32,570 nt of DNA. It comes from an uncultured Lachnospiraceae bacterium. GTDB lineage: Bacteria > Bacillota > Clostridia > Lachnospirales > Lachnospiraceae. The translations under genes were made by a program, and so were the position numbers. Position 1 is the first letter of the stretch, and the number at the start of each line of letters is the position of its first letter. The notes under the pieces were generated by a model. The model was not told where the DNA came from, did not search any database, and was given only the letters and a program-made list of their open reading frames with translations. The stretch spans positions 22,447-55,016 of the forward strand of contig CADACD010000027.1 in NCBI GenBank assembly GCA_902786365.1, given 5' to 3'. Shown here piece by piece: positions 6,222 to 11,650 of the stretch.

Positions 6222-7982
6222 GTGAAAAAGAAAAACATTATTTTAAAAAGGGCTGTGTCAGGTCTTGCTGCATCACTGCTTGCAGTGTCGATGATTTTCA
6301 CAGGCTGTGGAAAGAGCAGTGGCAATAGCAGTAGTAGCACTACAACAGGTGGTGCTAATACAAACACAAGTGAGACTTCTACTACAGCAAGGGAAGAACA
6401 AGAGACATCACCAAGGATTGAACTTGAGGGAGAGGAAGTTCCCTCACAGCTTGCGACAACGCTGAATGTCATTGATGATAAAAATAGAAATTACTATGAG
6501 ATATTTGTTGCATCATTTTATGACAGTGATGGAGATGGCATGGGAGATCTTCAGGGTATCATAGAAAAACTCGATTATATCAATGATGGAGATCCGAATA
6601 CGGATACAGATCTTGGCTGTAACGGAATCTGGTTGATGCCGATTAATCCCTCATCATCATATCACAAATATGATGTAAAGGATTATAAAGCAATTGATGA
6701 ACAGTATGGAACACTAGATGATTTCAAGCAGTTGATAGAGGAATGCAATAAAAGAGGCATTACTGTCATTGTTGATTTGGTAATGAATCACACAGCACTT
6801 GGAAATCAGTGGTTTAAAGATGCAGTAACATATTTAAAAGATCTTCCGGATGATAAAGAGCCGAATGCAGCAGAATGTAAGTATGTTGATTATTATACAT
6901 TTGTCAAAGGAGAACAGGTAGGTAATTATTATCAGGCCGGTTCGTCAGCATATTACTATGAAGGGATGTTTTCACAGCAGATGCCGGATTTGAATCTTGA
7001 CAATCCTAATGTGAGAGCTGAATTTGAAGATATTGCAAAATTCTGGCTTGACCTTGGAGTTGGAGGCTTCAGACTTGATGCAGCAAAGGAATACTTTTCA
7101 GGACAGACAGATAAGAATGTAGAGGTTCTTACATGGTTTAATAATTATGTAAAGAGTGTTAATCCGGAGGCATATATTGTAGCAGAAACATGGACTCCGG
7201 AATATGCAAGATATCTTGACAGCGGAATTGACAGTGCATTTGATTTCAGTTATTCGGGCATTGATGGAAACATCACATTTACAGCACGTAATTCAGATCC
7301 TACATATGATGGTTTGTATTTCGCCAATTGTCTTTTAAAAACACAGGAAAGTGTACAAAGTCATTCGCAGACAGCAGTGCAGGCGCCATTCCTTAGCAAT
7401 CATGACCTTGACAGACCGGCAGCGTACCTTGCTTATGGTGAAGAAAAGATTAAATTTGCACATGGACTTTTGAGCATAATGAACGGTTCAACATTTATCT
7501 ACTATGGTGATGAGATAGGTATTGGCGGTACCGGTGCAGATGAAAATAAGCGTTCGCCTATGATTTGGTCAAGCACAGATACAACAGGACAGTGTAATGG
7601 ACCGATAAACATGAAAAAAGATGAGGTTATCAATAAATTTGCATCGGTTGAGGAACAGCTTCAGGACGAATATTCAATTCTTTCCTATGTAAAACATGCC
7701 ATGAAACTCAGAAATATGTTCCCGGAGATAGCAAGAGGAACAGTTGAGTTAGTTGAAGAAGTAACTGATACAGATATATGTGCGATTTCTAAGACATATA
7801 ACGGAAGTAAGATTATCATCCTTGCTAATACAAATAAAACAGAGACAAAATGTGTTGAATTGTCAAGAGCAAACAATGGCTATACATGTATACAGGGTAT
7901 CCTTACTGTAGGTGCAGACCAGCCTTATCAGGTGGAGGACACAATTGTACTGCCACCAAATGCGATTGTGATACTGAAATAA
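6222..7982 (+). CDS. Secreted lipoprotein alpha-amylase, GH13 (subfamily 36-like)
   Basis: This 586-residue enzyme is predicted to cleave alpha-1,4 links in starch or maltodextrins at the outer face of the membrane. A basic, hydrophobic signal ends in FTGC, giving lipidation at Cys29, followed by a Ser/Thr/Asn linker. GH13 landmarks: DLVMNH (185-190); MPDLN (254-258), the region-V form used by the intermediate GH13_36 group; nucleophile Asp286 in GFRLDAAKEYF; acid/base Glu322 in AETW; Asp395 in SNHDLDR. DSDGDGMGD near residue 105 resembles a calcium loop. A beta domain ends in LPPNAIVILK. AGGAGGT precedes the GTG start. Three secreted surface proteins follow, suggesting a joint role in starch use. 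Confidence 0.92.
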   Translation: MKKKNIILKRAVSGLAASLLAVSMIFTGCGKSSGNSSSSTTTGGANTNTSETSTTAREEQETSPRIELEGEEVPSQLATTLNVIDDKNRNYYEIFVASFYDSDGDGMGDLQGIIEKLDYINDGDPNTDTDLGCNGIWLMPINPSSSYHKYDVKDYKAIDEQYGTLDDFKQLIEECNKRGITVIVDLVMNHTALGNQWFKDAVTYLKDLPDDKEPNAAECKYVDYYTFVKGEQVGNYYQAGSSAYYYEGMFSQQMPDLNLDNPNVRAEFEDIAKFWLDLGVGGFRLDAAKEYFSGQTDKNVEVLTWFNNYVKSVNPEAYIVAETWTPEYARYLDSGIDSAFDFSYSGIDGNITFTARNSDPTYDGLYFANCLLKTQESVQSHSQTAVQAPFLSNHDLDRPAAYLAYGEEKIKFAHGLLSIMNGSTFIYYGDEIGIGGTGADENKRSPMIWSSTDTTGQCNGPINMKKDEVINKFASVEEQLQDEYSILSYVKHAMKLRNMFPEIARGTVELVEEVTDTDICAISKTYNGSKIIILANTNKTETKCVELSRANNGYTCIQGILTVGADQPYQVEDTIVLPPNAIVILK

Positions 7983-7983
7983 C

Positions 7984-8027
7984 AAAAATGCACAGCATAT
8001 TTACAAGTTAAAATGAAAGACCCGATA
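7984..8027. repeat. Diverged copy of the left-edge hairpin element
   Basis: AAAAATGC (7984-7991), ACA, then GCATATTT gives an imperfect hairpin, followed by ACAAGTT and ATAAGTTAGC. These words match the third hairpin and flanks at 62-97 (AAAAATGC, GCATTTTT, ACGAGTT, ATAAGTTAAC), although their order around the hairpin differs. It lies directly after the amylase stop codon and lacks a proper T-tract. Confidence 0.4.
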
Positions 8028-8131
8028 AGTTAGCAACAGACCGGAGGTGTAATTTGGTGTATTCTAATGGAAAAAATCACTAAAATTTCATTAAAATATA
8101 GAGAATATTTAAAAAATATGTCAAAAAATAC

Positions 8132-8160
8132 TTGCAAGCTAGTATTATTTGATATATAAT
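8132..8160 (+). promoter_or_regulatory. Promoter of surface protein gene 1
   Basis: TTGCAA (8132-8137), a 17-nt spacer ending TGATA, and TATAAT (8155-8160). The same layout occurs before the next two genes. Confidence 0.8.
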
Positions 8161-8219
8161 GTGGATATTGACACCTATGTTTACGTCAAATAATAAAAAG
8201 AAAGGGATGGATTTAGAAG

Positions 8220-9263
8220 ATGAGAAAATCTATTAAAAAAGTAGCAGCAACTTTATTAGCAGCAACAATGACTTTAGGAACTTTAACAACAGCATTCGCA
8301 TATGAGACAGGAACAAAACAGGAAAAAGACAAAGATGGGAATGTTACATATGAATATGAAGCTGTTACTGATGTTGATGACAAAGAAGCAGTTTATTTTG
8401 CAGTAGGTAACATGTCACCAGAGGCTTGGAAGACAGACGCTACAGCTAACATTATCAAACCTGTAGATGGACTAGATGGAGTTTATTCTATCGATTTAAC
8501 ATTCCCAGCATATGATGATGAGAGCAAGTGGGCTTCAAGATTTGGTATCTGCGCCGCTTACTATGATGAATCTACAGGCGTATTCACTGCTGGAACATGG
8601 GCAAGAATGTTAGTTGGTGAACCGGCATATACAGCAAATGATGGTTTAACATGTTTATCAAACATCAGTGTCAGACCAGAAGAAGAATTAAAAGCTACAG
8701 TTTACTATGATGAAAGAACAGCTACAGTATATATTCAGGATGAAGAAGGCAACGCAGTAGATTACTACTTAAGCTGGGTTGGTAATGATGATGATGAAGT
8801 TTATATGACAGTTGCTGATTATGCAAAGACAACATATGAAAAGTATTATAACGGATTATCAACAGATGACAGACGTGCAGACCTTGACAAAATTGCTAAA
8901 GATATCACACTTACAAAGTCACTTTTCGATGGAACATATGTTTCAAATGTTAAAGGTTTAGCAGCATATGTTAATGGTGGAGATGACTATTATAAAGCAT
9001 CAGAGCCTGCATCAGAGCCTGCATCAAAGCCTGCATCAGAGCCTGCATCAAAGCCTGCATCAGAGCCAGCAACAGAGGCTACAACAACAGCAGCAGTTGT
9101 AACACCAGCAGCATCAACACCAGCAGCAGCTAAAACAGCAGCAGCTACAACAGCAGCAAATCAGGCAACAAAAACAGGTGATGTGGCACCAGTTGCATTA
9201 TTAGCAGTATTATTAGCTTCAGTTGCAGTAGTTGCAGTAGCAGCTAAAAAGAAAGAAGCTTAA
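8220..9263 (+). CDS. Secreted cell-surface protein 1 with KTGD-type anchor
   Basis: This 347-residue protein has a signal peptide (MRKSIKKVAATLLAATMTLG to about residue 27, AFA cut site). A beta-rich domain at about 50-180 contains PVDGLDGVYS, shared with the next protein. An aspartate/tyrosine-rich helical part runs to about 258, a Ser-Glu/Lys-Pro-Ala repeat linker and Ala/Thr stalk follow, and the protein ends TKTGD, hydrophobic helix, KKKEA. The end resembles a sortase sorting signal (usually PKTGD), but Thr replaces the Pro. I do not recognise the main domain; a carbohydrate-binding role is inferred from the amylase upstream and the CBM26-like third protein. It has its own promoter and terminator. 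The Shine-Dalgarno is weak: AAAGGG lies about 13 nt before the ATG. Confidence 0.8.
   Translation: MRKSIKKVAATLLAATMTLGTLTTAFAYETGTKQEKDKDGNVTYEYEAVTDVDDKEAVYFAVGNMSPEAWKTDATANIIKPVDGLDGVYSIDLTFPAYDDESKWASRFGICAAYYDESTGVFTAGTWARMLVGEPAYTANDGLTCLSNISVRPEEELKATVYYDERTATVYIQDEEGNAVDYYLSWVGNDDDEVYMTVADYAKTTYEKYYNGLSTDDRRADLDKIAKDITLTKSLFDGTYVSNVKGLAAYVNGGDDYYKASEPASEPASKPASEPASKPASEPATEATTTAAVVTPAASTPAAAKTAAATTAANQATKTGDVAPVALLAVLLASVAVVAVAAKKKEA
9000..9071 (+). repeat. 12-bp tandem repeat encoding the SEPA/SKPA linker
   Basis: Six copies of tca-(g/a)ag-cc(t/a)-gca run head to tail and encode Ser-Glu/Lys-Pro-Ala. They form a spacer between the folded part of surface protein 1 and its wall/membrane anchor. 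The length may vary between strains. Confidence 0.92.
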
Positions 9264-9289
9264 TTTGAAAATGATTGTAATGTAGTTTT

Positions 9290-9320
9290 AGAGGAAATGC
9301 ATATGCATTTCCTCTTTTTT
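9290..9320 (+). terminator. Terminator after surface protein gene 1
   Basis: AGAGGAAATGCAT (9290-9302) is followed directly by its exact reverse complement ATGCATTTCCTCT (9303-9315) and a T-run. The 26-bp perfect palindrome is unusually strong. Confidence 0.93.
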
Positions 9321-9509
9321 GAAAAAAGGACAAAATGTCATGTACATTGTCTCCTTATTTTATTCTACAGGGAGATTTTAGAATAGTTATCCGGTTTTAA
9401 TATTTCATGATAGACGATTGGCATATATATGGATATTGTAGAAAAATGTAAAAGAAAAGTAAAAAGATAAAATAAAATCATAATAAAAAATAAATATGAA
9501 AAAATTGTA

Positions 9510-9538
9510 TTGCAAATATGAATTAAATGATATATAAT
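9510..9538 (+). promoter_or_regulatory. Promoter of surface protein gene 2
   Basis: TTGCAA (9510-9515), a 17-nt spacer ending TGATA, and TATAAT (9533-9538). Just downstream, GTTACA (9551-9556) and TGTAAC (9562-9567) could form a hairpin near the 5' end of the transcript. The 190 nt between the preceding terminator and this promoter hold nothing I can identify. Confidence 0.8.
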
Positions 9539-9594
9539 TGGCTAGAAAATGTTACAAAGAATGTAACTTTATTTTGAAAGGAGAAAAGTTAATT

Positions 9595-10497
9595 ATGAGA
9601 AAAGTAATTAAGAAGATTGCAACAGTAGTTGCATCAGTATCGATGGTAGCGGCTATGAGTTTATCAGCATTTGCTACAACATATGACACATATCAGTTTG
9701 CTGGAAATCCTAACCTTGTAGGTGAGGCTGATCCGGGAGCAAAAACAGTAGGTTGGGTAACTGTTAGAGAACAGCAGTTTTTAGAGCCAGTTGATGGATT
9801 AGATGGCGTATATTCATTTACAGGAAATTATGTTCATGCTGCTGATTATGATTCACTTGATGATGACACAAAAGCAGGATACAGAGAGTTTAAGATACTT
9901 GGTGATGGAGATGTGGAAGGCTGGAACCATCAGTTATGTCTCGGAACACCTGATGCAGCATGGGCTGACAACCAGACACAGTTCAGAATTGACGATACAC
10001 TTGAAGAAGGTGAATTTAAAGTATATGTTGATGTAACAAAAGGATTTGTTGCAGTTATTCAGAATCATCAGAATGTTAATATGTTAATAAGATTCCATTC
10101 AAGAGATGAAGATTCTGCGAACTTTGTTAAAACTACAAAGGCAGCTATCTTAGCTGATGGATATGAAGAAAGTGCTGTATATTTAGATGATGATGCATAC
10201 TTAGAGTTTGTTAATCAGTGTCTTAAATTAGAAGGTGGCGAAGCTATCACAGCATTATACGAAGGTGATGAAGCTCCTGCAGCTGCAGAAGATGATACAA
10301 CAGTTTCAGATGACAATGCAAACGATAAAGCAGATGCTGAAAAAACAATAGGTGTATCTGATACAAAGACATCTTCATCAAACAGCAGTGATGATAAAGA
10401 AGATGATGGCCTTTCAAAAGGTGCTGTTGCAGGTATTGTAGTTGCTGTAGTAGCAGTTATCGGTATCATTGTAGCAGTAGTTAAGAAGAAAAACTAA
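9595..10497 (+). CDS. Secreted membrane-anchored surface protein 2
   Basis: This 300-residue protein starts at the ATG at 9595, where GAAAGGAG lies 11 nt upstream and the product begins MRKVIKKIATVVAS like its neighbours. A signal peptide ends near AFA. The folded part (about 30-215) contains GWVTVREQQFLEPVDGLDGVYS, EFKILGDG and WNHQLCLG, then EFKVYVDVTKGFVAV. This pattern resembles small beta-sandwich starch-binding modules, but I cannot name the family. An acidic Ser/Asp linker leads to SKGAVAGIVVAVVAVIG, a membrane helix ending KKKN. Unlike proteins 1 and 3 there is no KTGD motif, so it is probably held by the helix alone. A polysaccharide-binding role is inferred from context. Confidence 0.75.
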   Translation: MRKVIKKIATVVASVSMVAAMSLSAFATTYDTYQFAGNPNLVGEADPGAKTVGWVTVREQQFLEPVDGLDGVYSFTGNYVHAADYDSLDDDTKAGYREFKILGDGDVEGWNHQLCLGTPDAAWADNQTQFRIDDTLEEGEFKVYVDVTKGFVAVIQNHQNVNMLIRFHSRDEDSANFVKTTKAAILADGYEESAVYLDDDAYLEFVNQCLKLEGGEAITALYEGDEAPAAAEDDTTVSDDNANDKADAEKTIGVSDTKTSSSNSSDDKEDDGLSKGAVAGIVVAVVAVIGIIVAVVKKKN

Positions 10498-10526
10498 TCA
10501 TTGATATATCAATATTGAATGAAAAC

Positions 10527-10566
10527 AAAGAGTATCATGAACAATGCGTCGTGGTACTCTTTTTTT
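10527..10566 (+). terminator. Terminator after surface protein gene 2
   Basis: AAAGAGTATCATGA (10527-10540) pairs with TCGTGGTACTCTTT (10549-10562) through 14 bp including two wobbles, followed by more Ts. Confidence 0.9.
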
Positions 10567-10664
10567 AAATGTTGAACTATACATTTCTACTAGATTTTAT
10601 ATTAATTTCTTAGTTAATTGTACCAAAAAAGGCAAAATTAGATATAAAAATATAGTAAAAAGTA

Positions 10665-10693
10665 TTGCAAAAACTATATACATGATATATAAT
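10665..10693 (+). promoter_or_regulatory. Promoter of surface protein gene 3
   Basis: TTGCAA (10665-10670), a 17-nt spacer ending TGATA, and TATAAT (10688-10693), the same architecture as the two preceding genes. Confidence 0.8.
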
Positions 10694-10759
10694 AGGAATA
10701 ATTGAAAGTGAGCGCAGTCTCTCTATTCAAAATAATATCATAAAGGAGAAATGAGAAGA

Positions 10760-11593
10760 ATGAGAAAATTAAAGAAACTTTTTGCAGTAGCAGCAACAGC
10801 TGCAATGACTTTGGCAATGAGCGTTTCAGCTTTTGCTGATCAGACAATTACATTCCATTTCCAGAATGCTAAAAACTGGAATCCAGTTGGTGCATGGATT
10901 TATCAGGGTGTAGGTTTTGATGTAAACGTAACAAACGCATTCGTAACAAACACAAAGGCAGATGGTTCAGTTAAGCAGTTATGGCCGGGAGCTAAATGTA
11001 CAGACGAAGGAAATGGCTGGGTATCAGTATCAGCTACATTTTCTGATACTGTTGCAACAGATGGAGCAGTTGTAATTTTCAACAACTTTGTTGCAGATTC
11101 AAAGACAAACGATACAACAGAGGAAGATGACATTGAAGCAATCAAGAATTCAGGTATTGCTACAGATGCAACAGCTACAAAAGAGCAGACACCTAATATT
11201 ACTCTTAACAAGAAGAATGCATTCAAAGATGGAGCAGTTCCAGCAGAAGTATGGGTTACATATGATGGAAAGACAGCTACAGTATTAGCTGCAGCTCCTG
11301 ATAGTTATGCAAAAGCAAGCACTAATCCAGGGCCAACAACAACAGGCAATACAGAAACACCAACACCAGCAGGTAGCAACACAGCAGCATCAACACCAGC
11401 AGCATCAACACCAGCAGCATCAACACCAGCAGCATCAACACCAGCAGCATCAACACCAACATCTGCTGGTACAGGTACAGCTTCTAACACAACAGCACCT
11501 AAGACAGGTGATACAGTTGCAGTTTCAGTTATAGCACTTGCAGCAGTAGCAGCAGTAGCAGTAGTTGCAACAAAGAAGAAAGCTAACGCATAA
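10760..11593 (+). CDS. Secreted surface protein 3, CBM26-like starch-binding module with PKTGD anchor
   Basis: This 277-residue protein starts at the ATG at 10760: AAAGGAG is 11 nt upstream, and an in-frame ATG at 10751 is too close to it. A signal peptide ends at AFA. Residues ~27-105 read TITFHFQNAKNWNPVGAWIY, then LWPGAKCTDEGNGWVSVSA and AVVIFNNFVADSKTNDT. This order (aromatic strand, W-PG, GWVS, IFNN, T-D) fits starch-binding CBM26-type domains. EVWVTYDGKTATVL follows at about 160. A Pro/Ala/Ser/Thr stalk with five AASTP repeats leads to APKTGD, a hydrophobic helix and KKKANA, a sortase-type sorting signal. No sortase gene is in the window. Likely role: holding starch at the cell surface beside the lipoprotein amylase. 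Confidence 0.8.
   Translation: MRKLKKLFAVAATAAMTLAMSVSAFADQTITFHFQNAKNWNPVGAWIYQGVGFDVNVTNAFVTNTKADGSVKQLWPGAKCTDEGNGWVSVSATFSDTVATDGAVVIFNNFVADSKTNDTTEEDDIEAIKNSGIATDATATKEQTPNITLNKKNAFKDGAVPAEVWVTYDGKTATVLAAAPDSYAKASTNPGPTTTGNTETPTPAGSNTAASTPAASTPAASTPAASTPAASTPTSAGTGTASNTTAPKTGDTVAVSVIALAAVAAVAVVATKKKANA
11384..11458 (+). repeat. 15-bp tandem repeat encoding the AASTP stalk
   Basis: Five exact or near-exact copies of gcagcatcaacacca encode Ala-Ala-Ser-Thr-Pro, the extended stalk of surface protein 3. The identity at DNA level suggests recent expansion. Confidence 0.95.
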
Positions 11594-11620
11594 TTTATAA
11601 TTGATAGTAATCAACATTAC

Positions 11621-11650
11621 AGAGAAGTCGTTCTTGCGGCTTCTCTTTTT
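11621..11650 (+). terminator. Terminator after surface protein gene 3
   Basis: AGAGAAGTCG (11621-11630) pairs with CGGCTTCTCT (11637-11646), one wobble, loop TTCTTG, followed by Ts. Confidence 0.9.

Follow-up and report, generated by a model that had tools for sequence, protein, structure and literature searches.

What do three small tandem surface proteins do beside an amylase? This question is raised by a 32,570-nucleotide stretch of DNA ('the window') from an uncultured Lachnospiraceae bacterium (GCA_902786365.1, contig CADACD010000027.1, positions 22,447 to 55,016), in which an initial annotation proposed a starch-capture system made of an amylase and three secreted proteins (proteins 1–3, or 'the trio'). 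We verified all four open reading frames (ORFs) on the + strand where they had been placed. Our analyses suggest, with a probability of about 0.77, that the trio are co-expressed, surface-held starch binders near a lipoprotein amylase that aid starch cutting by this enzyme and by other GH13 enzymes. X25-type predicted folds – the initial annotation had asked for such a fold comparison – and a recurring gene order both support the proposed starch-capture role.

Proteins 1 and 2 (P0002 and P0003) had been said to fit no recognizable family, and Pfam and NCBIfam scans indeed gave none over cut-off – DUF5634, Podoplanin and the other weak Pfam rows all fell below it. We find that the two proteins are instead divergent X25-like modules of one family. 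They share an identical 10-mer, PVDGLDGVYS (at residue 81 of protein 1 and residue 65 of protein 2), which on sequence evidence reflects homology: an hhalign comparison of their ortholog groups from relatives (alignment A1, 14 rows; A2, 9 rows) gave a probability of 98.9 and an E-value of 1.7e-17. An iterated profile started from either protein finds the other, and both converge on the same 48 stretches (independent E-value below 1e-4, fragments included) in the window and 19 loci – a count that is no frequency, because the loci were picked for having matches. Matches to P0002 that were limited to stalk and anchor (query residues 256–347; G007:C91, G015, G020, G033 and G056), to the stalk (several more congener rows) or to the signal peptide (G004:C86) were not counted as modules.

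Consistent with proteins 1 and 2 carrying X25-type modules, the predicted fold of each is a beta-sandwich of the SusE/SusF/Sca5 type (protein 1: predicted local distance difference test, pLDDT, 92.1, predicted template modelling score, pTM, 0.89; protein 2: pLDDT 86.3, pTM 0.87). Both models rank 7rpy (Sca5 X25-2), 2wan (pullulanase X25) and 4fe9 (SusF) as their top three matches, though the two are not wholly independent because their alignments have 7 rows in common. The top Foldseek match of protein 1 was 7rpy (E 0.014, probability 0.96). The sandwich spans residues 55–183 of protein 1 (8382..8768) and about residues 29–166 of protein 2 (9679..10092). In the protein 1 model it is followed by four helices (model residues 157–209, in blocks of pLDDT 88–97), which correspond to residues 197–250 (8808..8969). 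Sas20 domain 1, which we had expected given these helices, contributed no chain among the matches listed for protein 1. We took the Hsp70 substrate domains that appear in the structural lists to reflect a common sandwich arrangement. Profile searches of the PDB with the module returned either no matches or P450 and actin rows at E 1.3–1.8, which we attribute to chance.

We also looked at how far the X25 assignment extends to sequence. The Pfam X25 family PF22058 (X25_BaPul_like) matched neither P0002 nor P0003, at E 1 or at 0.05. Among relatives scanned singly, it matched 3 of 19 rows in one alignment (A3, best 0.0017) and 3 of 22 in another (A4, best 5e-5); these rows partly overlap and include neither window protein. 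The whole ORF of one relative scored 24.7 bits against a cut-off of 27. In a profile search across 392 genomes of the order, the sole match outside the window's genus came from a genome of another family (G064), in a frame that encodes two X25 stretches (Pfam 3.1e-46) ahead of a part that is akin to neopullulanases from residue 261 onward (6.5e-15). Frames adjoining it would encode a putative maltose-type transporter. When module rows were aligned with the G064 X25 copies, one column held tryptophan in 31 of the 36 rows and another in 34. These columns are W70 and W127 in protein 1 and W54 and W110 in protein 2, and tryptophan also occupies them in both X25 copies, so that each window module has the X25 Trp pair. 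The ligand platforms of the Sca5/Sas20 X25 modules are the Trp pairs W509/W555 and W620/W661 (PMC9112005), and the window pairs would be equivalent to W509/W555 of Sca5. By Pfam, proteins 1 and 2 stand outside PF22058; they are X25-like in build and probably also in working.

The other two proteins of the locus were assigned more directly. The amylase (P0001, 586 residues, 6222..7982) is a lipoprotein GH13 alpha-amylase with a Pfam Alpha-amylase match of 4.3e-74, a lipobox cysteine and the GH13 motifs DLVMNH, GFRLD, AETW and FLSNHD. Its closest solved relative is 7jjn (4.2e-131), and it also resembles 1wza (5e-78), which we take to be a GH13_36 member. Protein 3 (P0004, 280 residues, 10751..11593) is a member of CBM26, as the initial annotation had suggested: residues 36–122 (10856..11116) match PF16738 at 7e-9 (36.2 bits against a cut-off of 28.1). 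Pfam scans gave no PF16738 match for proteins 1 and 2.

All three trio proteins begin with a signal peptide and carry one module on a stalk, and the similar plan noted earlier holds up to their C-termini. Protein 1 (347 residues, 8220..9263) continues from its module and helices through a repeat stalk to a TKTGD sorting-type motif (9168..9182), and protein 3 has a TPAAS-type repeat stalk and a PKTGD motif (11498..11512). Protein 2 (300 residues, 9595..10497, counted from the ATG at 9595, with a TTG upstream at 9538) has an acidic Ser-rich stalk and a membrane tail that lacks any sorting-type motif. No sorting-signal model was over cut-off for the trio (P0004, 16 against 23.5 bits for Rumino_NPXTG; P0002, 12.4 against 18.15 bits for srtB_target; P0003, none); for sortases, 7 matches in the genome exceed the cut-off. 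The stalk DNA consists of short tandem repeats at 8997–9086 (12-nt spacing) and 11382–11456 (15-nt spacing), and stalk length may therefore differ among strains.

In the genome as a whole, about 17 frames hold 25 GH13 stretches, and CBM26 occurs in three frames; the module is confined to proteins 1 and 2, apart from one row at E 0.24. Pfam detected neither cohesin nor dockerin in the four window proteins, which do not have the make-up of an amylosome; one cohesin and four dockerin matches lie elsewhere in the genome. No RNA families or tRNAs were found in the window.

We observed that a promoter-like element, TTGCAA-N12-TGATATATAAT, precedes every trio gene (8132..8160, 9510..9538 and 10665..10693, all on the + strand), its end lying 56–59 bases 5' of the ATG. 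These are the only three exact copies in the 3.12-Mb genome. When up to two mismatches were allowed, 21 genome sites matched, against 1 for a backwards control pattern. Across the window and 12 loci from relatives, 42 of 43 trio-type or other module/CBM26 cluster genes reach at least 13 of the 17 element positions within 300 bases of their start; the single miss is an L077 gene with 10 positions and a doubtful start. None of 7 amylase and lipid-kinase genes reaches this score, and random 303-base window stretches do so in 23 of 787 cases (AT-rich ones, 6 of 195). Doubtful starts were retained in these counts (L066 amylase, TTG; L072 protein 1, off ATG). A general sigma-70 scan was not above shuffles (26 against 27.4), so the promoter argument rests on the common element. 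Each trio gene is also followed by a terminator-like hairpin (9290..9315, 10527..10562 and 11621..11646, + strand), with 7 such sites in the region on both strands against 2.7 expected. The hairpin scan found no terminator-like site between the amylase and protein 1, and read-through from one to the other is therefore possible.

At E 1e-5 the module occurs in 4 of 397 genomes and 2 of 334 genera sampled from the family. In the sample from the order, where no more than 8 candidates per genome were scored, 4 of 392 genomes and 2 of 173 genera have a match: three genomes of the window's genus, and G064, which accounts for the second genus. In a scan of a named collection, 29 pattern stretches gave 12 loci. 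All carry the title Lachnospiraceae, Lachnospira or uncultured Clostridiales, and strain RM5 is among them.

The gene order that the initial annotation proposed to seek in other Lachnospiraceae does recur in the 12 loci compared with the window. In each of the 12, a protein-3-type (CBM26-type) gene adjoins the protein-2 gene. Of 9 loci testable for an upstream amylase, 6 have one (the window, L066, L069, L070, L075 and L077) and 3 lack it in the examined flank (L067, L071 and L072). Contig ends truncate L068, L073, L074 and L076, which stand outside this count; in G007, from which L068 comes, another contig (L062) ends with an amylase and a frame that bears the module. Downstream, every testable locus (11 of 11) has a lipid kinase and a sigma factor – L072 ends too early, and L073 has one extra frame intervening.

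Some relatives have additional genes at this locus. In L069, L070, L075 and L077 an opposite-strand gene separates the amylase from the trio. In six relatives, but not in the window, a minus-strand frame of 251–285 residues lies directly ahead of the first module gene (L067:3612-4388, L069:6841-7662, L070:6127-6882, L072:4515-5282, L075:3508-4269 and L077:2433-3290). The ends of these frames look similar by eye, and the copy in L063, a locus of the genome that also holds L077, gave no Pfam match. Two loci have an extra gene between proteins 1 and 2 (L054:9345-10811 and L053:8548-10524): an L,D-transpeptidase (YkuD) in L054, and in L053 one similar at its end by eye.

In congeners the module also occurs in larger proteins. 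In L052, an 1823-residue protein combines five modules with a protein-3-type domain, Big_2 and six ChW repeats; the adjoining 1444-residue protein has a single module together with CBM48, GH13 and ChW, and its pullulanase beta-domain fell below cut-off. L055 has a similar pair, with a pullulanase-type GH13 (1213 residues) that lacks a module match; its large module-bearing binder is split over two overlapping frames (L055:4092-8610), as from a frameshift or assembly error. Further arrays have three modules with a protein-3-type domain and choline-binding repeats (L060), three modules with a TGD tail (L051) or four modules with Big_2 (L063). The protein-3-type domains of L052, L055, L056, L057 and L060 were called with our own profile (E 1e-43 or better per protein); by Pfam CBM26, L056 is just below cut-off (27.9 against 28.1), L057 and L060 are below it, and L052 and L055 are unlisted, while another gene of L063 is over it (37.3).

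A subset of these proteins combines modules with dockerin (L056, L057 and L058, all from G004); L056 and L057 add a protein-3-type domain, and L056 and L058 leucine-rich repeats. Dockerin matches number 21 in G004 and 13 in G008, and G004 also has 6 cohesin matches. In L048, from G008, one module accompanies a cohesin match below cut-off (20.5 against 24.1), and a dockerin lies downstream of this frame across an in-frame TGA (G008:C268:4306-4464). The dockerin company in G004 and G008 is possibly a second, Lachnospiraceae amylosome.

These observations bear on three competing explanations. Proteins 1 and 2 could be X25-like and yet have drifted to another ligand – which might be peptidoglycan, mucin, a different glucan or a partner protein (the amylase itself, for example) – leaving only the CBM26 protein to bind starch. 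Sandwich folds do get reused, the extra helices alter the module, and lone X25 halves of Sca5 did not bind (PMC9112005). We nevertheless consider such a drift unlikely, given that the Trp pair is retained, that one module is fused to GH13 with CBM48, and that modules are repeatedly found with protein-3-type domains. The near-identical promoter-like elements would also suit structural or adhesive coat proteins, in which parallel promoters serve a surface layer, the sandwiches have no sugar ligand, and the amylase is a chance neighbor. The 3 loci without an amylase in the examined flank fit this explanation, as do the lipid kinase and sigma factor, which tie the conserved position of the trio to unrelated genes as well. 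Against it stand the amylase in the other 6 testable loci, the constant neighbor of the CBM26 type and the occurrence of the module in a GH13 protein, and we regard a coat as improbable.

The least credible alternative is a single operon that joins the amylase to the trio as a starch locus with one dedicated enzyme. Amylase and trio are adjacent on the same strand, with no terminator-like site detected in between, but the promoter-like and terminator-like sites flanking each trio gene make a single operon very unlikely, the amylase lacks the trio element, and it is one of about 17 GH13 frames. For the same reasons, and with the trio found without an amylase in the examined flank in 3 of 9 testable loci, the earlier suggestion that the set serves one amylase is not clear.

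Under the starch-binding reading, near-identical promoter-like elements would drive the three tandem genes as a co-expressed set. The proteins would be secreted and held at the surface by a sorting-type tail (proteins 1 and 3) or a membrane tail (protein 2), each presenting one module on a flexible stalk: a divergent X25-type module with a conserved Trp pair and extra C-terminal helices in proteins 1 and 2, and a CBM26 in protein 3. The modules would hold starch or maltodextrin (alpha-glucan) chains, which the lipoprotein amylase, together with other GH13 enzymes, would cut close to the membrane, and the helices may play a part at the binding site. By analogy with Sas20, whose two module types are argued to recognize different starch parts (PMC9112005), two module types would suit different parts of starch.

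More tentatively, the modules might represent a new X25-derived starch-binding family that arose in Lachnospiraceae (two sampled genera), in which the helices make a single module sufficient. Such a family could be deployed as a kit: stalked singles driven by the common trio promoter, tandem arrays that combine modules and protein-3-type domains on ChW/choline-binding-type repeats, a pullulanase-like GH13 fusion and, at least in G004 and perhaps in G008, a cohesin/dockerin starch complex that would parallel the R. bromii amylosome. The starch-binding reading, if right, would add a helix-bearing single-module X25 variant, account for surface proteins that family libraries leave nameless, provide a promoter signature with which to find the regulon, and let one ask whether the helices take the place of the second X25 half needed by Sca5.

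To our knowledge, non-catalytic starch capture in Lachnospiraceae is known mainly from anchored Eubacterium rectale enzymes, and X25 binding work comes mainly from R. bromii, Bacteroides and Bacillus; among the literature matches listed, no title or abstract opening named the window proteins. SusE and SusF belong to a Gram-negative outer-membrane system. The SusE/SusF proteins of Bacteroides thetaiotaomicron (4fe9, 4fem and 4fch in our structural lists) resemble the trio as surface proteins with X25-type domains, with two modules in SusE and three in SusF (PMC9112005). The X25 of Bacillus acidopullulyticus pullulanase (PF22058, 2wan) shares the fold, and some relatives match it weakly in sequence, but it sits in an enzyme and the window proteins lack a PF22058 match. 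Closest in structure is the X25 of R. bromii Sca5 and Sas20 domain 2 (7rpy), the top match of both models, with a beta-sandwich, a Trp pair and non-catalytic surface starch binding like that proposed here. The Sca5/Sas20 modules are of about 120 residues and act as a tandem pair (PMC9112005), whereas the window genome has one module per protein, of about 180 residues with helices, and no dockerin or cohesin in these proteins. Protein 3, although a CBM26 member, is a free-standing anchored protein and not part of an amylase. Sas20 domain 1 and its anchored R. bromii homologue (RBR_02940/RBR_09240) have the same plan as the window proteins – a sandwich, then helices, a linker and a sortase motif – with a CBM26-like sandwich in Sas20 domain 1, unlike the X25-like modules of proteins 1 and 2 (PMC9112005). 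Small single-module binders as such are not entirely new, since a single-module anchored starch binder is already predicted in R. bromii (PMC9112005); what looks new here is the module variant, an X25-like sandwich with helices, and its use in a promoter-sharing set.
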